Source: Semisulcospira habei (Eukaryota > Mollusca > Gastropoda > Semisulcospiridae). Taken from it: 64,000 nt of DNA. Positions 3,054 to 47,899 of the stretch are shown piece by piece (the first letter of the stretch is position 1; every line of letters starts with the position of its first letter). Under the pieces are notes generated by a model. It was given only the letters and a program-made list of their open reading frames with translations, was not told the origin of the DNA and ran no database searches. Position numbers and translations under genes: made by a program. The stretch spans positions 206,634,291 to 206,698,290 of the forward strand of contig BTPG01000005.1 in NCBI GenBank assembly GCA_036245525.1. Direction: 5' to 3'.

Positions 3054-3646
3054 CTATTTCTTCAGACTCTGGTAATAAGCACCCTTTAGCTGCTGCAGGG
3101 ATGCATCACTCAGTTTGGCAGCTGGTTGGGTCTTCAATACCATGAGTGCCTCTGTTGTATCAGAGTGCAGGCTGTGCCTCTGATCGGTGCAGGTTTTCCT
3201 AACCATGGAAAACAAACGCTCACATGGAGCACTTGAATGAGGGATGGTCAGGATGCCTTTCATGACCCTCACAAGCTCAGGGAACCTTTTCTGTAGCTTA
3301 AACCAGGTTTGGTCAACCCTTTCCACCTCATCTAGGTCCATTTCAGAGCATTGCATCTGGGCAAATTGTTCTAGTACAAGATCTCTCTCTGCATCTCCAC
3401 GAAGCATTGGAAATGTTTGCAAAAAGTAGTCGAGCTGTGAAGAGGTCACAGATGTCCTTTGACGGGGGTCGACCACAGCTGCATTCACCAGGACTTTGTC
3501 ATCCAATGGGAGGTTGTCAACAAGGTACTGACAAACAGTGACAAAATACATCCTCACAGCCTTGAAGAAGTCAGGGATCCTCTCCTCCCTGATGTTGTGC
3601 TTCTTGGGTTCAGCTAGCATGTCCTTCACGCCTTTACCATAGCCGA
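3054..3646 (-). pseudogene. hAT transposase C-terminal exon part with dimerisation domain
   Basis: Open for about 197 residues to the TAG at 3054-3056. The motif PHSSAPCERLFSMVRKTCTD followed by leucine-rich LMVLK is the hAT C-terminal dimerisation signature. The reading frame runs straight into the inverted-repeat end of the RAG1-N-like transposon at 3646/3647, so the upstream part of this exon is displaced to 6333-6430. Confidence 0.88.
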
Positions 3647-4307
3647 CACTTAGTTCGCTTCCAGCTGCCAGAGAGATAAGGCTGCCGCGAGTTCCACTCT
3701 CGCCTGCTCATTCTATTTATATCGCACTACTGAGCGGTACACGGCGTGACCGGCTCTCTGCCGCTATAACAACTACCTACACATTTGTATTCATAACACA
3801 TCTCTGCCTAAAGTGACTGTTGTGGAAGCAACATCGTTCAAATGTTGAAATTCTCACCTACACACTGATACCAAACATGACAACATTACGACTTGCACTT
3901 GTGTAGCAGGTCATGGTGAAAATAAAGAGAACGGGAATTTGTTGATGTACGAAAACGAGAATTTATTGTGAAATTGACAAAGTTCCCACAGCCATAACAC
4001 AAAGACGCTACTTTTCCCAGTGAAACACACTTGCATGCATAAGGGTTAGCATGCCTACAGTACGTATCACTTAATGGATTTTGGGTTCATGGTGGGGGAC
4101 GGAAGCAGGAGGGTAATTAATGAGGTCACTGACAGGTGTCGACAGACAAGTTCCAGACATCCGACTTGGTGTACACTCCCGGCATTGGGGAAAGAGAGGG
4201 CTTAGTTACACGGATACTATTGAGGAGATAGCCACGTTTCTTTCTTGGGAAATAGTGTAACACTAACAGTCAACCTTGTAAATGTACTTTTGATTTAACT
4301 TTTGATC

Positions 4308-4904
4308 ATGATGGAGTCTGATGAAACGCGTACAGTCTGCGTACACACAGGTGTGTTCCATGCAATGAGAGTTAATGCATTGTGCAGAATATGTGGCGAG
4401 AGATCACAAAAGAGATACACGGATAAAAAGTCATTTCTTTGTATCAATTATGAACACTTAATCCACAAGTGTTATGGAATTAATATCCAGGAAGACAAAG
4501 ACATGATGCACTCCAAAACAATGTGTAGGAGTTGCTATTGTCGGATGAAACGGATAGACTCGACTGAAACACGTGTGTCCGAGGGGACAACGCGAAATGC
4601 GGCGTCTGATATTGCCTCATCACAACACATTTGGACCATGTTCCATCCAAATACGAGTGTTGAAGAATGTGTCGCGTGTGTTCACTTCATGCAGCTAGGT
4701 AAAGGAGGACGACCAGCGAAGCGGGGTTCCCGGCATGGAAAGAAACGATCGTTTCGATCCGCGGAATGTGACACTCATAACACTGACACTGATAACAGCA
4801 CTAATGAAGGTGATAGTGGTATACAAGTTTTTATTCCGCCGACGTCTACTCCCCGTAAAACGGTTCTTATGTCTAGTGTGTCAGAAAATGTGTTAAACCT
4901 CAAG
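4308..4904 (+). CDS. RAG1 N-terminal-domain-like protein (first exon, partial)
   Basis: About 199 residues from ATG at 4308 (or 4311). Zinc-ligand spacing follows the RAG1 N-terminal region: LCRICGERSQKR near residue 27, then an SFLCINYEHLIHKCYGI helix, CRSCYCRMKR near residue 73, IWTMFHPN, ECVACVHF, then a basic stretch (GRPAKRGSRHGKKR). In RAG1 this region binds zinc, interacts with partner proteins and supports recombination but is not catalytic. A consensus donor AAG/GTATGT at 4904/4905 suggests a further exon has been lost. Without splicing the frame runs on to a stop at 5090, through inverted-repeat sequence. The function within the transposon is unknown. Confidence 0.75.
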
Positions 4905-5016
4905 GTATGTTTAAAAACACTGTTGAATATTGTGACCTGTTATGGACTGATCGTATTTCGGGATGGCAATAGCAGTCTGTGGAGTACCGAGACGGCTGCG
5001 GGCGAGAAATGCCAGA

Positions 5017-6332
5017 ACACGCGACCTGTCAGTGACCTCATTAACCACCCTCCTGCTTCCGTCCCCCACTATGAATCCAAAATCCGGTAAGTGATACTTA
5101 CTGTAGGCATGCTGACCCTTATGCATGCAAGTGTGTTTCGTTGGGAAAAGTAGCGTCTTCGTGTTATGGCTGTGGGAACTTTGTCAATTTCACAACAAAC
5201 ACCGACATCAACAAATTCCCGTTCCCTTTATTTTTACCATAACCTACTACACAAGTGTAAGTCGTAATGTTGTCATGTTTGGTATCAGTGTGTAGGTGAG
5301 AATTTCAACTTTTGAACGATGTTGCTTCCACAACAGTCACTTCAGGCAGATTTGTGTTATGAATACAAACCAGTAGGTAGTTGTTATAGCGGCAGAGCGC
5401 CGGTCATGCCGTGTACCGCACAACACGCGACCTGTCAGTGACCTCATTAACCACCCTCCTGCTTTCGTCCCCCACCATGAATCCAAAATCCGCTAAGTGA
5501 TACTTACTGTAGGCATGCTGACCCTTATGCATGCAAGTGTGTTTCGTTGGGAAAAGTAGCATCTTCGTGTTATGGCTGTGGGAACTTTGTCAATTTCACA
5601 ACAAACACCGACATCAACAAATTCCCTTTCCCTTTATTTTTACCATAACCTGCTACACAAGTGTAAGTCATAATGTTGTCATGTTTGGTATCAGTGTGTA
5701 GGTGAGAATTTCAACTTTTGAACGATGTTGCTTCCACAACAGTCACTTCAGGCAGATTTGTGTTATGAATACAAACCAGTAGGTAGTTGTTATAGCGGCA
5801 GAGCGCCGGTCACGCCGTGTACCGCACAACACGCGACCTGTCAGTGACCTCATTAACCACCCTCCTGCTTTCGTCCCCCACCATGAATCCAAAATCCGGT
5901 AAGTGATACTTACTGTAGGCATGCTGACCCTTATGCATGCAAGTGTGTTTCGTTGGGAAAAGTAGCGTCTTCGTGTTATGGCTGTGGGAACTTTGTCAAT
6001 TTCACAACAAACACCGACATCGTACATCAACAAATTCCCGTTCTCTTTATTTTCACCATAACCTGCTACACAAGTGCAAGTCGTAATGTTGTCATATTTG
6101 GTATCAGTGTGTAGGTGAGAATTTCAACTTTTGAACGATGTTGCTTCCACAACAGTCACTGTAAGCAGAGATGTGTTATGAATACAAATGTGTAGGTAGT
6201 TGTTATAGCGGCAGAGCGCCGGTCACGCCGTGTACCCCACAGTAGCAAGCGATATAAATAGAATGAGCGGGCGAGAGTGGAATGTAACCTCGCGGCGCCT
6301 TATCTCGCTGGCAGCTGGAAGCGAACTAAGTG
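5017..6332. repeat. 406-bp tandem repeats forming the right inverted-repeat arm
   Basis: Three units start at 5017, 5423 and 5829 with ACACGCGACCTGTCAGTGAC. The first two are nearly identical. The third continues into the true transposon end at 6332. The left arm has a single inverted copy, so the right arm was amplified after the element formed. Confidence 0.9.
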
Positions 6333-6430
6333 CTAGGCGCCAGCACTGGCTGGTAAAGCCGTGCCTTAGCTGCTGTTCCAATGAGAAGATCTGCATCTGC
6401 CTTCTGCTTGTCTTTCGCCTGGAATTGCAC
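6333..6430 (-). pseudogene. hAT transposase exon 7, upstream part
   Basis: Acceptor TGACTGTTAG/GTGCAATTCC starts a phase-0 frame reading VQFQAKDKQKADADLLIGTA, typical of the segment before the last hAT domain. It stops abruptly at the RAG1-N-like transposon end (6332) and resumes at 3646, shown by the matching domain order. It is too short to stand out as an ORF. Confidence 0.75.
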
Positions 6431-6849
6431 CTAACAGTCAAAAACAATCGTGCCTGCTTCAGTTGGCATTTCAGTCAAAATAGATGTGCTAAGGAAACAA
6501 TATACCAAATTTTGCAAGCAATTAATATGACTGCAAGAACCTATTCTTTAATTGTGTGTCATTCTATTTTCTTGCATAGAAAACAACAACAAAAATTCAT
6601 TTTTCTTTAAAAGGTATTTTTTCGAAAAATACTTACCGATGACATGACTGAATGGAAGTGTCTACTACTTACTCATTCTAGCCTAAGAGCCAGTTGTGTT
6701 AAGACACAACCCGGGAGGCACTCGGGGAACCCCGAGGGGACCAAGAGTTGTCTCCCTATACCCACCACCCGGAAGCCGGGTACCCATAATCCCTCAGTCA
6801 GGATACTTGGCGCACGAGCGGCAAGCGGGGCAGGTGGGAGGGTCGTTTG

Positions 6850-6947
6850 AGTCATGTCATCGGTAAGTATTTTTCGAAAAAATACCTTTTAAAGAAAAAT
6901 GAATTTGTTTCTTCAAAAACATTACCGATGACATGACTGAATGGAAG
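6850..6947. repeat. Internal complementary region of DIRS-like element 1
   Basis: Its reverse complement runs from CTTCCATTCAGTCATGTC, through the terminal TTGAAGAAACAAATT, directly into CATTTTTCTTTAAAAGG of the left end. It is therefore a stored complement of the circular junction. Both sides match the real termini essentially perfectly. Confidence 0.85.
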
Positions 6948-11450: not shown

Positions 11451-12718
11451 CAACTGCATGCCGACAACTAGCCGTGCAGTAAGCAAGCAGGCCCACTGCC
11501 GCCAAGCGCTAAGGCGAGGGAACAACATATGTACACAAAAGACGAATACGTCATGACGGAAGCGAGGTACCAAACTGCACGTCTGCAATCTAGCAGTGCA
11601 GTAACGAGGTAGATTCACCGCCGTCAAGTGCTAAGGTGAGCAACAACATATGTACCAACCCCTGTGACAAAAGGAGTCAGGCCCCCAAACATTATTACTA
11701 AGGGTGACCGTGTGTGGAAAAAAAAACCAACACCGGCCGCATGCTGTACAACTCAATACGCAATGACAATCAAGACAAGAAAAACATCTGGGGCAGAAAA
11801 TCACCACTTTATGTGGACATGCCACGAGGGGCCCGCCCAGCCAAGGAGCGTAAACCCCCCAGCTGCCCGCCGGAACGTATATCCACTGTCTAAGGTACGT
11901 GAGTACTTGTCTACCGCGTATGCCTGCGTATGCGAGTGTGCGCTTAAATCCATCACCCGTGAGCGAAAACAGAACAGGCGCTGGTCCCGAACAAACCACG
12001 CGATGACAAGGCGTGACTCAAGCTGTGCCACTCAGCTAATCAGGCCATGGAGTAAAAGAATTTTCCACACCCAAGGTACAAAAGCGTAGGAAACTTCTCT
12101 ACGATTCACCGAAGGTGAGTGGGGGCGCAATTACAGTGAGAAGAAGACGAAAAACTTCGTACCTGCACAACCAGTGCCCAGCCCGGGAACCAGCCGAGGG
12201 TCAATCCCGCTACCTTACCTCTCCGCCGAAGGGGAACGGGGGGAGACGTCTAAAACCCGCCTGGCACGACCGGCGAAGATCACCGGACAGCTCACCAGCG
12301 GCCGAAGCGCAGGCGCCAAGCAGTGGGGACGAGAAAACCACGCAGCAGCACAGGCAGGGCCGACGAAACGATCCTATCTCCCGCTCTTCATTCCAACAGC
12401 AAGTCCGAACCCGAGAACGGTCGAAAACCAAAGTCCGTAGGCTAGAGCCGAGCGCAAGACAACCGAATCGTGCGCCTAAGTAGACTAGACTGGGGGATTA
12501 TGGGTACCCGGCTTCCGGGTGGTGGGTATAGGGAGACAACTCTTGGTCCCCTCGGGGTTCCCCGAGTGCCTCCCGGGTTGTGTCTTAACACAACTGGCTC
12601 TTAGGCTAGAATGAGTAAGTAGTAGACACTTCCATTCAGTCATGTCATCGGTAATGTTTTTGAAGAAACAAATTACTTCATTCTATTGTTAGGTTCTACA
12701 TGACATGACAATGCATAC

Positions 12719-15098: not shown

Positions 15099-15533
15099 AG
15101 TTGAGTGAAAACTTGGGAACTATTACAAGTGATCGCGGACTGCTCGATAAAATCTCACGCTCGACCGACATAAAATGCGGGCTTTACGCATGCGTCAAAC
15201 AGAAGATGGTCGCCAAGATGACTATTCACAGAAAATGAGCCCCACAAAAAAAAAAAATGTCCGAGAAAACGAAAAATGCGGAAGATTTCACAGATACGCG
15301 GAAAAGCGGAAAAAATGGTTCAAATGCGGAAATCTTCCGCATAATGCGGGAGAGTAAACAGGTCTGTTAACCCCTTAGCCACTGGTACTCTTTACTGGGT
15401 GCATGAACGAAGGGATTAAACAATCAGCTTTGACGCGTTCAATGCCAGTGGACACAAATCATATCTTACCATCATAAATTCAACATCAAAGATCCCCAGC
15501 CATCAAAGGAACGTGGATACAAGTGGTGTCGGC

Positions 15534-15812
15534 AAGAGGCATAGATCCACATGAGCCCTTCAGCAAGAGGCATAGATCCATACAAGCCCCTCAGCAATAG
15601 CCATAGATCCACATGAGCCCTTCAGCAAGAGGCATAGATCCATACAAGCCCCTCAGCAATAGCCATAGATCCACATGAGCCCTTCAGCAAGAGGCATAGA
15701 TCCAAACAAGCCCCTCAGCAATAGCCATAGATCCACATGAGCCCTTCAGCAAGAGGCATAGATCCAAACAAGCCCCTCAGCAATAGCCATAGATCCACAT
15801 GAGCCCTTCAGC
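15534..15812. repeat. 31-bp minisatellite grown from an F4 hairpin arm
   Basis: About nine 31-bp units, arranged as 62-bp dimers of AAGAGGCATAGATCCATACA and AATAGCCATAGATCCACATG types, each ending CTCAGC or TTCAGC. The unit is one arm of the F4 palindrome seen at 62727-62794. An F4-type left end, TTAACCCCTTAGCC, begins at 15367. Confidence 0.9.
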
Positions 15813-16095
15813 ACAAAGGGGGGTAATTCCTCGTAAATCCCAAAGCCAACGGTTGGAGGCTGGAGCCGGAGAAACGTGCGCACGGCGAGCTATGGATAAG
15901 AATGGCGGGAACACACAGAGCGCGCACCCGGATGGAGGGAGGGGAGACTACCCAGGTGCTTGGTTACAACTCCCTAGAGTTACGGTCCGTGTCGTGTGGG
16001 TACACACGAACGGCTTTGAGGCTGAATTCGGTAAGCTAAAGGGTATATTCCATACAGTAATGCCATCGGTATGGATTTTGAAGAAACAAAGGGGC
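15813..16095 (-). mobile_element. Right-end fragment of a fourth DIRS-like element
   Basis: Ends with GTAATGCCATCGGTATGGAT then TTTTGAAGAAACAAA, the right-end signature of the three long DIRS-like elements, preceded by GC-rich terminal-repeat sequence. It is flanked by the 9-bp direct repeat ACAAAGGGG (15813-15821, 16087-16095). Confidence 0.6.
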
Positions 16096-25662: not shown

Positions 25663-25783
25663 CTGGAAAGACAAGTTAAAAACTTGCAATTGTGTTCAGT
25701 TTTAGTTACTGTCAAGAATCAATAACGGCAAATCACAATGATTTCATCTAAACAAAGTTTAACTTATTATTGGGGTTTTTAGA

Positions 25784-26394
25784 CGAGTTCACGTACCTGG
25801 GCAGCAAGGTTACCACAGATGGAGACTGCACAAGGGAGATCACCACAAGAATCAGCAAAGCCAACCAAGCCTTCGCAATGCTGAAACCCATCTGGAGGAC
25901 CACAAGCCTGAGCATCCACACCAAGCTCCGTATTTTTAAGAGCAACGTGCTGAGTGTCCTTCTATATGGGTCAGAATGCTGGAAATCCACTACCGCTACG
26001 GAACGCAAGCTGGATGTCTTCCAGAACAAGTGCCTGCGACGGATCATGAAGGTCTTCTGGCCAAACATGATTACAAACGAGGAACTACGGAAGAGAGCAG
26101 GCGCAGACAGCATCGCTGAAACCATCGCCACACGGAGATGGAGATGGCTAGGCCACGTTTGCAGAATGTCACCTGACTCATTACCAAGGGTGGCACTGAG
26201 ATGGACACCACAGGGGAAGAGAAACCGTGGGCGACCAAAGGAGACGTGGCGCCGAACCGTGGAGCGAGAGCTCAAGAACAGAGGCCTTACTCTGCAAACA
26301 GCACCCAAAATAGCAGCTGACAGACAAAAGTGGCGCTCCCTTGCCGTCGCCTCAAGCACCAGACGGCGCAGAGAGGACTGAATGAATGAATGAA
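25784..26394 (+). mobile_element. 5'-truncated LINE, C-terminal third
   Basis: Flanked by the 13-bp duplication TGGGGTTTTTAGA (25771-25783, 26395-26407) and tailed by TGAATGAATGAA. The ORF continues to TGA near 26380 and reads EFTYLGSKVTTDGDCTREIT, SNVLSVLLYGSECWKST and RRWRWLGHVCRM then GKRNRGRPKETWRR. This is the segment after the reverse transcriptase palm in RTE/BovB-like LINEs. The frame is intact within the fragment. The clade is uncertain. Confidence 0.88.
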
Positions 26395-29833: not shown

Positions 29834-30182
29834 CGGACGGCGTTGATTCGGCGTCAGAGCACACGAGGGGCTCGCACAGGACTTGTTGCCTGGTCTCCTG
29901 GGGGAAGTCCAACCCTTTCAGCGGCCGCAAGGTGAACCCCCGTGGCGTGGTCATGGGGGACCTGGTCTTGGCAATGAAGGCAGGGTCCGTAAGGTGCAGT
30001 ACGGAACCATCCGCTCAAAACTGCAGGTAGGCAGGGCGCGCTGACCGCACGTGTAGCTCGCCAACTCGGGCTGCCATGGCAAGCGCCCACAGGAAGCATG
30101 TCTTACGAGTCACATCCGCAAGGAGGGCCAAAGACAGGGGTGCGAATCGGGCAGAAATCAGCCAAGTCAGTACACAGGGAAG

Positions 30183-32886
30183 AGCGCTGATGGGCTGGGA
30201 ACCTCTTGGGCCAAGAATTATCACAGCAGCCTTTAGAACCAAGAAAAAGCTCAAGCTGAACGTCATCCAGTGTTATGCGCCCACTAATGACAGTGACGAG
30301 GAAGAGAAACAAGAGTTCTACGACCGACTCCAGAGTGCCGTGGACAAATGTGCGGAGCGAGACATCACCATCGTCATGGGCGATTTTAATGCCAAAATAG
30401 GGGAGGACAACACCGGATACGAAGAGGTGATGGGGAGACAGGGACTAGGGGAGATGAGTGAGAACGGGGAGAGGTTTGTAGACTTTTGTGCTCTAAACCG
30501 ACTTGTCATTGGAGGCAGCATCTTCCCACACAGAAGAATACACAAAACAACGTGGGTCTCACCTGACCATACTACAGAGAACCAAATAGACCATATCTGC
30601 ATTAGCAAGAAATTTAGAAGATCCCTTCAAGATGTTCGAGTGAGGAGGGGAGCAGATATCGCCTCAGACCACCATCTGCTCACCTTAAGAATAAAGCTCA
30701 AGTTAAAGAAAAGCCGCACAGAGACAACAAGAAGACAGCGCTATAATGTAGGCCTCCTGAGAGAGACTGGAGTGAGAGAAGAGTTCAAACTGGTGCTGTC
30801 CAACCGGTTTCAAGCGCTACAGGAGCTAGTAAATGAAGAGGAGGCGGTCACCACAGAGCAGCAGTGGAAGGCAGTTAGAGAGGCGCTGAACTCAACCTGC
30901 AAAGACACTGTAGGGTTCAGGAAACACCATCACAAGGACTGGCTGTCGGCACAGACCTTGAAGAAGATAGAAGTGAGGAAGCAGAAGAAAGCAGTTGTCA
31001 ACAACAGTCGCACGAGAGCAGCCAAAGCAAGGGCACAGGAGGAATACTCAGAAGCCAACCGCGAGGTGAAGAGGAGTATCAGGGCAGACAAGAGGGCCTA
31101 CACAGACAGCCTGGCAGCAGAGGCAGAAAAGGCAGCAGGCAGCGGCAACATGAAACAGCTCTACGACATTACCAGAAGATTGTCGGGCAAGTATGGCCAT
31201 ACAGAAAGACCAGTAAAAGACAAGGAAGGCAAGCCTATTGCAGACAGAGCAGACCAACTCAACAGATGGGCCGAGTATTTTGAAGAGTTACTGAACAGAC
31301 CCAGCCCACCCGACCCCCCAGACATCCAGCCAGCAGAGACCGACCTACCCATCAGCTGTGACAGACCCACCCGGGAAGAGATCAGAAGAGCAGTGGCATT
31401 TTTGAAGAACGGCAAAGCAGCAGGGCCAGATGGCATCCCAGCAGAGTCTCTGAAAGCAGACCTAGAGACAACAGTAGAGATGCTGTACCCACTGTTTGGA
31501 AAGATCTGGGAAGAGGAGGTGATGCTGGCTGACTGGAAGGAGGGGTACCTAATCAAGCTTCCCAAGAAAGGTGACCTCAGCAAGTGTTCCAACTATAGAG
31601 GAATCACCTTGCTGTCAGTACCAGGAAAGGTCTTCAACAGGATCATCCTGGAGAGAATGAAGAGCTCCGTTGACCCCCAGCTGAGAGACCAGCAAGCAGG
31701 ATTCAGGAAAAACCGATCATGTACAGACCAGATCGCCACTCTCCGCATCATCGTGGAACAGTCTCTGGAGTGGAGCTCCCCGCTGTACGTCAAATTTGTG
31801 GATTACGAGAAAGCATTTGACAGCGTGGCCCGAGAGACTCTGTGGAAACTCCTACGACACTATGGTGTACCCACAAAGCTCGTCCGCCTGATCAAGAGCA
31901 GCTACGATGGCATGACATGTCGCGTGATCCACAAAGGGCAGTTCACCAGGGAGCTCCAGGTCAGAACCGGTGTCAGGCAGGGGTGTCTGCTGTCTCCGTT
32001 CCTCTTCCTACTGGCCATAGACTGGGTCATGAAGATGACCACATAGCACAGACGAAGTGGAATACAGTGGACACTGTGGACACAGCTTGACGACCTCGAT
32101 TTTGCAGATGACTTGGCATTACTGTCCCACATGCATCAACAAATGCAGGACAAGACCACGAGGCTTGCTGACATCTCGTCCCAAGTGGGCCTCACCATCC
32201 ACAAACAGAAAACAAAGACAATGAGGCTGAACGCAACCAGGGAAGAACCAGTCTTGCTTGCTGGCACCCCGTTGGAGGAGGTGGAGTCCTTCACCTATCT
32301 CGGGAGCATCATAGACAAAAAAGGCGGCACTGATGAAGATATCAGAGCACAAATCGGTAAAGCCAGAGCAGCCTTTCTCCAGTTGAAAAAAGTGTGGAGT
32401 TCCAGAGAGCTGTCACAAAACACCAAAGTCCGGATTTTCAACTCCAACGTAAAAGCAGTTCTCCTATATGGAGCAGAGACTTGGAGATTGACAAAAACCA
32501 CTGTCAACAGAGTACAGATCTTCATAAACAGTTGCCTTAGAAGAATTTTGAAAATCCATTGGCCAGAGAAGATCAGCAACATCAGACTCTGGGAGAGAAC
32601 AGAGCAGATAACAGCAGAGAATGAAATTGGGCGAAGAAGATGGGGATGGATTGGTCACAGTCTGAGAAAGCCAGCTTCCAGTATCACTAGGCAGGCATTG
32701 TCATGGAATCCCCAGGGAAAGAGGAAAAGAGGTAGGCCGAGAAACTCCTGGCGTCGAGACCTCCAAGCAGACATCAAGAGAATGGGAACCACCTGGAGTA
32801 AAATCGAAAGAGAAGCACAGGACAGGAGTCGCTGGAGGTCTCTCGTCGACGGCCTATACCCGGGTAGGGGTGACAGGCGTAAGTAA
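30183..32886 (+). pseudogene. LINE endonuclease-reverse transcriptase ORF with one nonsense codon
   Basis: The endonuclease part shows NVIQCYAPTNDSDEEEKQEF, VMGDFNAKIG, NQIDHICISK and SDHHLL (the catalytic Asn, Asp and His of APE-type nucleases). The reverse transcriptase shows KAAGPDGIPAESLK, NYRGITLLSVPGKVFNRIIL, QAGFRKNRSCTDQI, VDYEKAFDSV, GVRQGCLLSPFLFLLAIDWV and FADDLAL. The C-terminus shows LLYGAETWRLT and GKRKRGRPRNSWRRD. A single in-frame TAG at 32044-32046 lies just before the FADD box; otherwise the frame is open from 30183 to 32886. Endonuclease residues before NVIQCYAP are missing. Confidence 0.92.
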
Positions 32887-34500: not shown

Positions 34501-35165
34501 TGAGGCGGGCGCTCTGCCGGTAACCAGACCCCTCGGAAGAGCCCGCGGGCTTATCGAGGAGAGACAGGTGAGGACGGCCAGTCAACGAGGGACAGCTTGT
34601 GGCCCACTGCTGCAGGCCGGGCTCAGTGAGGCGGGCGCTCTGTCGGCATACAGATCCTCCGGAAGGATCAGCGGGCGTGGCAGCAGGGGCAGTCCTGTGG
34701 TCAGCAGAGCCGGAGGTTATCCGACGAAAGGACGGCCAGTCAACGTGGGACGGCTCGTGGCACACTGCTGCAGGCCGGGCTCAGTGAGGCGGGCGCTCTG
34801 CCGGCATACAGATCCTCCGGAAGGATCAGCAGGCGTGACAGCAGGGGCAGTCCTGCGGTCAGCAGTTCTGGTGGTTACCCGACGAAAGGACGGCCAGTCA
34901 ATGTGGGACGGCGCGTGGCACCCTGCTGCAGGCCGGGCGCTCTGCCGGCATACAAATCCTCCGGAAGGATCAGCGGGCATGGCAGCAGGGGCAGTCCTGT
35001 GGTCAGCAGTTCCGGTGGGTACCCGACGAAGGACGGCCAGTCAACGTGGGACGGCTCGTGGCACACTGCTGCAGGCTGGGCTCAGTGAGGCGGGCGCTCT
35101 GCCGGCATACAGATCCTCCGGAAGGATCAGCGGGCTTGGCAGCAGGGGCAGTCCTGTGGTCAGCA
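34494..35165. repeat. About 155-bp tandem array inside DIRS-like element 3
   Basis: Four to five units, each with GGCTCAGTGAGGCGGGCGCT, CATACAGATCCTCCGGAAGG and GGACGGCCAGTCAACG, beginning near 34494, 34619, 34777, 34930 and 35077. One unit is internally deleted. The array generates long open frames on both strands that are not genes. Confidence 0.88.
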
Positions 35166-45426: not shown

Positions 45427-47899
45427 TCATGTCTTTTGTAACTTTTTCAGTCTGTTGCGGACGTAATCCTTAATGTTTGTCCAGCGCCTATGTCTAAGTG
45501 CCGGCTCTTCTGCCATTGCGTGCTGTATCTCGGCCTTTCCAGGAAGTTTGTTCATGACGAGGTGTGTCTTGAAACGAGTTTGAACAGCTTTCTCTTCAGC
45601 TTCCCCCCATGGTTTCCTTGTAAATCTAGCTTTCTTTCGAACAGGAGCTGACGCAGTACTGTCATCATCAAAACTATCTAGATTGTCATCAGGCTCTGGA
45701 CATCTTTTCTCCGTCATGCTCATCGATTCCTGTGTTGTTGACTTGCTACTTGCTTTATTCACAGGTGCTGTTCCCCCCCGAGACCTCTCTGCCAGTTTCT
45801 GATGTGTCTTCATTGTCAAAGTCAATCTCTTCATCATCGCCCAGCTCAGCTCTAATGCAACTCTCAAAATCTGTCATCCCATTGTTAACTGACAGAAGAA
45901 TCTTTGCCACTTTTGCCTTTTGAAGGACGTCTTGAGGTTGGCGGTAGATATGGCGATGTATCCGAATATCATGGCCAAGGAAATCTGCCAGCTGATCCTG
46001 GTCTAACTCCGAGATGGCCATTGACTGAGCCAAAGTTGCAACCTGCTTCCGTAACTGAGTAAATGCGAACATGGCTGGGTATGACACCCCTGCTTCTAGG
46101 GCATGGGCCTTTAGAACATCATGGCCTCTGTAAGGCCTCTGACCAGAAGGTGTGGCGAAGATGTACTGGGAATCAGCGAGAGCTGCACTGATTGCCTCAT
46201 TTGAAGGATTCTGTCCACAGTTGTCATCATCTTCTTCGTCAGCAAAACGGGAACACTCCTATTAAACTTGCCTCTGATTTCCACTCGCTGAAAATGATTC
46301 CCCATTTTCTTCTCAACCTCTGTGAGACCTTTCAAGATATCTTGATTGGTGATCGATCCAATCTTAGCATTCTGGAAGTCTGACACCTTCATTCTCTGAA
46401 CTTCTCCCCCTCGTTTTCGGTTGAAAAGTGATACAGCACAAAGAGTTGCTTTAACCACTGTCGGATAATCTTCCGAAACCATCCTTGTCTCAAGAAGCTG
46501 TTGGACCTTCCTCACATCTTTACATGATGGGATCAGCTTGGGTTTGTTCATGGTCATTTTCCCGACCGACTGGGCTGCTGTAGCGGACACACAATCATAC
46601 CAGTCCCCGTTGAAGACAGAGTCAAACCGCTGCGCCTCAGAGAGCTCCTGTCGCCACCAGTCGTCTAAACCCTGCCCAAGCTGTTTGGATGCCTGTGACT
46701 GTTTGATCTGTGAACACTTTTTCAAAGCATGGCCTACGCGCATTGCAAGATTGCCTTTTTTGAACTGATGTGTGTCCTCATCAAAATCTGCTAGCTCTTT
46801 TACAGCCAGGACAACATGATCAAAGCTAGCTGAATTGATCACAGCATTTAAACTTGCGATTTTCATTTCTGACCTCACTCTGATAATCTTTAATAGTCTC
46901 CCTAACTCCCGCATCCTGGAGCTGATTTGTCCAGCCATGTGTTCTTCAATGTCCCTGCAGTCAAATAATCTCTTTCCATACTCAAGAAGCAAGGGCCGGG
47001 GGTCAGTTCTGATGAGACGGCTTATCTCATCATCTCTCTGCCTGGCCAAGACCTTGTGATAGAAGGAAAATTCAATGTCTAAGGGTATTGGAAGCATTAG
47101 GCGACCACGGCGCGCCGCCTCCCCTCTCTGAGTGATCTAAAACCCTCCTGGTTTCTGACAGCAACGTTTTGAGTGTACAGAGATCAGCTTTTTTTGATAG
47201 AGCCCTTTGCAATGGCTACAGGCGAGAAGGTCGTCTACCTTACTAGTTTTGGTGCGATACTTAGGAATCAAACATCCAGATTTGTTTTCAAGAACAGCAA
47301 CGTTATGCATGTAATCACCCTCATCTTGTAGTCTGATCCATGCTCGACGTCTCTGCTTTGTCCCTTTTTTCATCAACAAAATTTTAGCAACGTCTGCCTC
47401 ATCTGCATGGACATCTTGTAAGTGCGTGCTCATTTTCAAGACAAGCTTGCCACACAATTTGCATGCATGTTTCTTGTCCCATTTGTACTTTCCTTTCCCT
47501 CTCTGCGACACGTGCACACCTGTTTCTTCTGTAAGTGCTCTTTCCCCTCCCCAGCATCATGTTCCTTCTGCCTATCCACATTCTCATTGCCACCCCCTAA
47601 CGCACACTGCTGGTACTAGCGTCACCGACACCTGGCCACCCCGAACCTGCCACTTTGATGAAATCTAACATAGTCGATACAATACTGTCTATGTCAGAGA
47701 TCCCAGCAATTGATGCTGACACACCATCTGAATCCGGTGAGCTCGAGCCAGGAACAAACTCCTCGTCATCACTGCCCTTGTATTGCGATGTGCTTGCACT
47801 ACTCTCAGTCTCAGGTCCATCCCAGGCTCCATTTGCCAACTGGAGAAAGAAAGAAAGACAGATTGAAACCAAAGCTGCATTAGGACAGAAACAGCCCAA
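45427..47899 (-). pseudogene. Zinc finger - tyrosine-recombinase-like - SANT-like gene, broken
   Basis: Pieces in transcription order: an acidic Ser-rich segment (47899-47597), a finger region (47517-47140, KHACKLCGKLVLKMSTHLQD, then CSHCKGLYQKKLISVHSKRC), a core (47097-46111, with KRGGEVQRMKVSDF resembling recombinase box I), then FTQLRKQVATLAQ and QLADFLGHDIRIHRHIYR (46087-45755), resembling box II with the terminal Tyr, and a SANT-like tail (RKPWGEAEEKAV ... RRWTNIKDYVRNRLKKLQ). The His of His-x-x-Arg appears as Thr. Breaks: in-frame TAG at 47137-47139, a frameshift near 46205, and a frameshift in the C7 run near 45775. Similar multi-copy proteins occur in invertebrates and fish. A Crypton-like origin is possible but unproven. 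Confidence 0.6.

Follow-up and report, generated by a model that had tools for sequence, protein, structure and literature searches.

In the N-RAG-TP of Aplysia, reportedly described by Panchin and Moroz in 2008, the only gene of the transposon resembles the RAG1 N-terminus. Chapaev transposons, of the CMC group, encode a DUF1280 transposase with a Chapa domain. A passage of PMC3985635 equates DUF1280 with the putative Chapaev transposases and places it in one clade with RAG1. An excerpt of PMC4079192 gives C(2)C, LH and H(4)H as motifs characteristic of Chapaev, with CAC...GTG ends and a target-site duplication of generally 3-4 bp as hallmarks, and an excerpt of PMC4411706 defines the Chapa domain as the N-terminal part of RAG1, common to Chapaev. 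Both this domain and its relationship to RAG1 have been published before (Kapitonov & Koonin 2015; N-RAG-TP).

Here we describe an element, located in a 64-kb stretch of DNA (the window), that most likely represents a non-autonomous, internally deleted Chapaev-type DNA transposon, in what is probably the genome of an animal, keeping only the N-terminal Chapa domain. Its CAC...GTG ends and its Chapa/RAG1 N-terminal domain are those of Chapaev, and the joining of that domain to DUF1280 is seen in its long relative, P0005; it differs from Chapaev in having no core, no visible target-site duplication and tandem units on one side. Like N-RAG-TP, to which we liken it from partial published descriptions, it has a single gene resembling the RAG1 N-terminus, with the difference that truncation is seen here against P0005. 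RAGL/ProtoRAG elements share N-terminal Cys pairs and CAC at the tips, whereas no RAG1 core, RAG2-like gene or 5-bp duplication was seen in this element and its terminal sequence is different. Insect ZAD (zf-AD) proteins have the same C-x2-C...C-x2-C layout and give sub-threshold profile matches, whereas the domain described here has a third Cys pair with a W motif and lies in a transposon.

The sequence-only reading had placed an ORF inside CAC-led inverted repeats of 0.5 kb, with a tandem 406-bp amplification on one side, and we found both features, and the element as a whole, to be real (Table 1). The 20-base tip CACTTAGTTCGCTTCCAGCT, searched with up to three mismatches allowed (shuffle expectation 0.00), occurs twice in the 64 kb, both times exactly, at 3647-3666 (+) and 6313-6332 (-), giving the 5'-CAC...GTG-3' termini of Chapaev. 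By blastn, the two arms are 92.4% identical over 499 columns; their realignment contains 10 gap columns. The tandem array, with a period of 406 and about 3.0 copies, is confined to the right side. Its units 1 and 2 are identical at 398/406 sites; unit 3 shares 389/406 with each of them and 383/414 with the left arm. We infer from this that the outermost unit probably represents the native repeat, the two inner units being a younger pair. Neither the tip search nor blastn found a second copy of the element within the window.

Table 1. Features of the element and its flanks (positions in the window)
Feature	Position	Strand	Details
Whole element	3647..6332	.	2,686 bp, CAC...GTG termini
Left terminal inverted repeat, 491 bp	3647..4137	+	shares 461/489 aligned bases with right arm
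Right terminal inverted repeat, 497 bp; includes most of outermost tandem unit	5836..6332	-	
Tandem array, about three ~406-bp units from inner part of right repeat	5016..6241	+	
Chapa-type (RAG1 N-terminal-like) coding segment	4308..4862	+	collinear with the first ~190 residues of P0005; uninterrupted by stops or frameshifts
C1 motif CRIC, residues 26-29 of P0001	4383..4394	+	
C2 motif CRSC, residues 73-76 of P0001	4524..4535	+	
WTMFHP, then putative C3 motif CVAC, residues 109-124 of P0001	4632..4679	+	
Frame still open but lacking clear homology, extends into right repeat	4863..5090	+	
C-terminal part of hAT transposase frame (Dimer_Tnp_hAT), open up to element edge	3054..3646	-	Pfam E 1.8e-13
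Open frame, by eye upstream part of same hAT exon; splice-acceptor-like TTAG before it	6333..6430	-	

The remainder of the window contains other repeats and reading frames. Just outside the element, at 6593-6906, lies a repeat with 60-bp inverted arms that are 98% complementary, parts of which recur near 12468, 26424, 28534 and 36546. Tandem arrays occupy 206-521, 15532-15813 and 34571-35165, with units of 43, 62 and 158 bp, respectively. LINE-type ORFs at 30031-32886 (+) and 25752-26381 (+) encode an endonuclease and a reverse transcriptase (RVT_1 E 9.5e-24), with a stop at 32046 splitting the frame and DUF6451 tails also present. Two overlapping long ORFs at 45755-47136 (-) had no Pfam match at E 0.01, and for the 341-aa ORF among them nothing in PDB matched convincingly (best E 1.8); inspected by eye, they may resemble animal tyrosine-recombinase elements. 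The window has no Rfam match at the gathering threshold and no tRNA by ARAGORN.

The reading frame of the element is open from 4299 to 5090. Between the repeats, within 4138-5012, it provides 238 open codons, a length attained by 1 of 2000 dinucleotide shuffles. Translation from the ATG at 4308 yields 200 residues to 4907 (P0001, the window protein). In a search of 5.8 billion proteins few relatives were found (P0002, P0003, P0004, P0005 and P0006), the last two recovered with an X-padded query of a four-row profile that admits longer proteins; none came from viral contigs or prokaryote genomes. The Cys pairs 26/29, 73/76 and 121/124 are invariant in all five aligned sequences. We equate the putative third pair with 121/124 by its layout and by the Pfam match of P0004, which spans residues 8-140.

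The relative that speaks to the missing part of the gene is P0005, one continuous frame of 993 aa on a contig that is either genomic or transcript (E 7.6e-58; 51% identity over 29% of the padded query). Its residue 1 aligns with the ATG at 4308, and its first ~190 residues are the domain of the window protein (tblastn 102/236 identical including a poor tail, E 1e-58). After the shared domain comes a DUF1280 core, which scores 67.6 bits (cut-off 25; E 1.6e-18). The protein carries the motifs C(2)C (598-601), LH (667-668) and H(4)H (913-918), located by patterns that each occur 3-5 times in the 993 aa. Through this relative, the core that followed the domain would be a DUF1280 core of Chapaev type. 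The link to P0005 is one of protein sequence. As the window copy is without a core, its superfamily label derives from this protein relative and the CAC tips, and would apply to this particular element by extension.

That the window copy has no catalytic core, as had been read from the sequence, is borne out by tblastn of P0005 against the element: a single match falls below E 1, pairing residues 1-234 with 4308-4940, the next has E 1.2, and neither a DUF1280 nor a DDE core was found. The one long ORF of the element (260 aa) has no Pfam match to a RAG1 core. Among the relatives, tblastn alignments end at 4862 for P0002 and P0003 and at 4877 for P0006; that of P0005 reaches 4940, with a gap and little identity beyond about 4862. 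The frame from 4863 to 5090 is probably read-through of a deletion junction. A GT after G4904 sits in a donor-like setting and had been taken as a sign of further exons. We rejected this candidate, as the relatives lend the donor no support: their clear homology gives out near 4862, ~40 nt short of it, and P0005 runs as one continuous frame.

Could the domain instead be the whole functional product, binding DNA so as to regulate or repress related transposases in the manner of a stand-alone N-RAG-TP, and not deletion debris? About 185 codons are open with all three Cys pairs kept, P0002 is likewise short (180 aa), and an excerpt of PMC8355894 describes an N-RAG-TP made entirely of RAG1 N-terminal-like sequence. 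Against these points, clear homology breaks off in mid-protein at ~4862 with the frame continuing into the repeat, and in P0005 the same domain is the front of a long transposase; the short relatives may be mere fragments, the longest contigs being of 798-2541 bases. We consider a stand-alone product rather unlikely, and favor a remnant of an internally deleted Chapaev-type gene.

The sequence-only reading had called the ORF RAG1 N-terminal-like, with the zinc-ligand layout of that region. This description is upheld by the three Cys pairs and by RAG1 being the only significant match among solved structures. Taken alone, the window protein is borderline: its best Pfam family is RAG1_imp_bd (PF12560), with E 0.0023 for the 200 aa and 0.0044 for the 260-aa frame, and its 18.0 bits fall below the curated cut-off of 23.3. 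P0004 passes that cut-off, at 23.5 bits, with a match that spans all three Cys pairs (8-140). The matches of P0005 (E 0.14) and P0006 (E 0.063) to the same family are weak, and P0002 and P0003 match neither RAG1_imp_bd nor zf-AD in Pfam. In a PDB search with the window protein as a single sequence, RAG1 was the only match, at E 0.033; its E value fell to 0.002 with a profile of three rows and to 3.5e-6 with four. With a profile of five N-terminal pieces (A6), RAG1 was the sole significant match at E 1.1e-7, a whole-sequence value, as are all the PDB profile E values, that sums two pieces of which the better alone has E 0.0063; the next non-RAG1 match had E 0.65. In the proposed check against the RAG1 N-terminal family the protein alone stayed below the curated cut-off, and significance came with the profiles in the PDB search. 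Adding full-length tails to the five-row alignment gave E 3.6e-5 for RAG1, and the A6 profile against full-length RAG1 chains gave E 3.2e-4. The PDB alignments to RAG1 include C1 and C2 and not C3, which is covered only by the Pfam match of P0004. A further profile (A8) included a RAG1 piece, so its RAG1 matches in PDB are by construction. By sequence profile, then, the ORF is related to the N-terminal region of RAG1. AlphaFold models of the 200-aa protein (4 sequences; pLDDT 38) and of a 123-aa domain (5 sequences; pLDDT 50) were too poor to use, and Foldseek with the latter found nothing at E <=0.001 (best E 7.1).

A better match to an unrelated zinc-finger family had been named as what would speak against the RAG1 assignment, and such a match came close to being found. 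For the 200-aa window product, zf-AD (PF07776) has E 0.0043, about equal to RAG1_imp_bd, and is unlisted for the 260-aa frame; for P0004, P0005 and P0006 it outscores RAG1_imp_bd, at E 6.7e-6, 5.1e-4 and 0.0093, respectively. All of these matches stay below the curated cut-off of 28 bits (P0001 17.7, P0004 26.7, P0005 20.7, P0006 16.6). The gene could on this basis be an unrelated ZAD-type zinc-finger gene of the host or of a mobile element, resembling RAG1 by chance, and the role of the cysteines fits such a possibility: with every Cys masked, none of three proteins matched anything in Pfam, and RAG1 in the PDB search fell to E 0.062. Yet RAG1 remained first in the PDB list even then, and it was the sole significant PDB match in the unmasked profiles. 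Cys-preserving shuffles of P0004 matched RAG1_imp_bd or zf-AD in 0/10 cases; the cysteines are therefore necessary for the matches and insufficient for them. The RAG1_imp_bd match of P0004, moreover, takes in all three Cys pairs.

The RAG1 segment of 21wb_A, which we take to be mouse RAG1, itself matches zf-AD (E 0.0024), so matches to zf-AD and to RAG1 need not compete. FYVE, another zinc finger, follows closely for this segment at E 0.0044, and common Cys spacing may therefore explain part of the ZAD likeness. No chain labelled ZAD appeared in the sequence-profile PDB lists (A6; A8 with 26 PDB sequences), and the low-confidence model had a ZAD as its one weak VIA match (18 chains; RAG1 not among the rows). 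An excerpt of PMC4999995 describes zf-AD as a treble clef and, within that text, mentions RAG1 for its RING only. Chance resemblance of a ZAD-type gene seems to us very unlikely; common ancestry of the C1-C2 module and ZAD is possible from these sequence comparisons.

Homology of the domain to RAG1, together with the CAC ends, might also suggest a relic of a RAGL/ProtoRAG transposon that retained only the N-terminus of its RAG1-like protein. The ends CACTTAGTTCG agree with the protostome RAGL consensus CACTWMCAAAC at 6/11 positions and differ at positions 7-11, the agreement being limited to CACT and two degenerate positions; the terminal repeats were accordingly rejected as RAG-type recombination signals. 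No 5-bp duplication is seen, and the closest core-bearing relative, P0005, has DUF1280 and no RAG or Transib core in the PDB search, where its only match is the RAG1 N-terminus (E 0.15). A Transib/RAG lineage thus finds no support, and the RAGL relic, already disfavored, is highly improbable.

The element was further said to lie within a hAT transposase exon. At the left edge this holds: a minus-strand hAT frame, with the Dimer_Tnp_hAT match at 3054-3629 (50.5 bits against a cut-off of 21.4), stays open as far as the edge of the element. On the right flank, from 6333 on, two of three minus-strand frames are open, and one was taken by eye as hAT; the Dimer_Tnp_hAT match, found on the left only, does not extend there, and this candidate frame has no Pfam family match. 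The right flank may be the same exon, the continuation being assigned by eye.

No target-site duplication is visible, the bases beside the tips being CCGA on the left and CTAG on the right. The duplication is absent at 3642-3646 and 6333-6337 although the ends of the element are well kept. As the arms have kept about 94% identity, one would not expect three of these four bases to have changed, which makes the missing duplication puzzling. Removing 1, 4 or 7 bases keeps the flanking join open in the frame taken as hAT, removing 0, 3, 6 or 9 does so in the second open frame, and 2, 5 or 8 fit neither. The length of a duplication read from this test depends on the frame chosen.

We propose that the sole gene of the element is the 5' remnant of a transposase gene whose DUF1280/DDE catalytic part would have been lost by deletion, leaving a segment predicted to encode the zinc-binding N-terminal Chapa domain common to RAG1. 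An intact transposase supplied from another locus could recognize the CAC-ended repeats, excise the element and reinsert it. The element would have landed beside or in the hAT transposase exon, and slippage or unequal exchange may later have turned inner parts of its right repeat into tandem copies.

The bearing on the origin of the N-terminal part of RAG1 that the sequence-only reading saw here is real and already in print; as elements of its kind are known, this one serves as a good example and comes as no surprise. P0005 provides a long reference in which a RAG1-like front is joined to a DUF1280 core. Loss of the core from a Chapaev-type transposase can give rise to an N-RAG-TP-like element, so there is no need to regard such elements as independent donors of the RAG1 N-terminus. 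The shared ZAD matches, in turn, suggest a testable deeper origin for the N-terminal region of RAG1.
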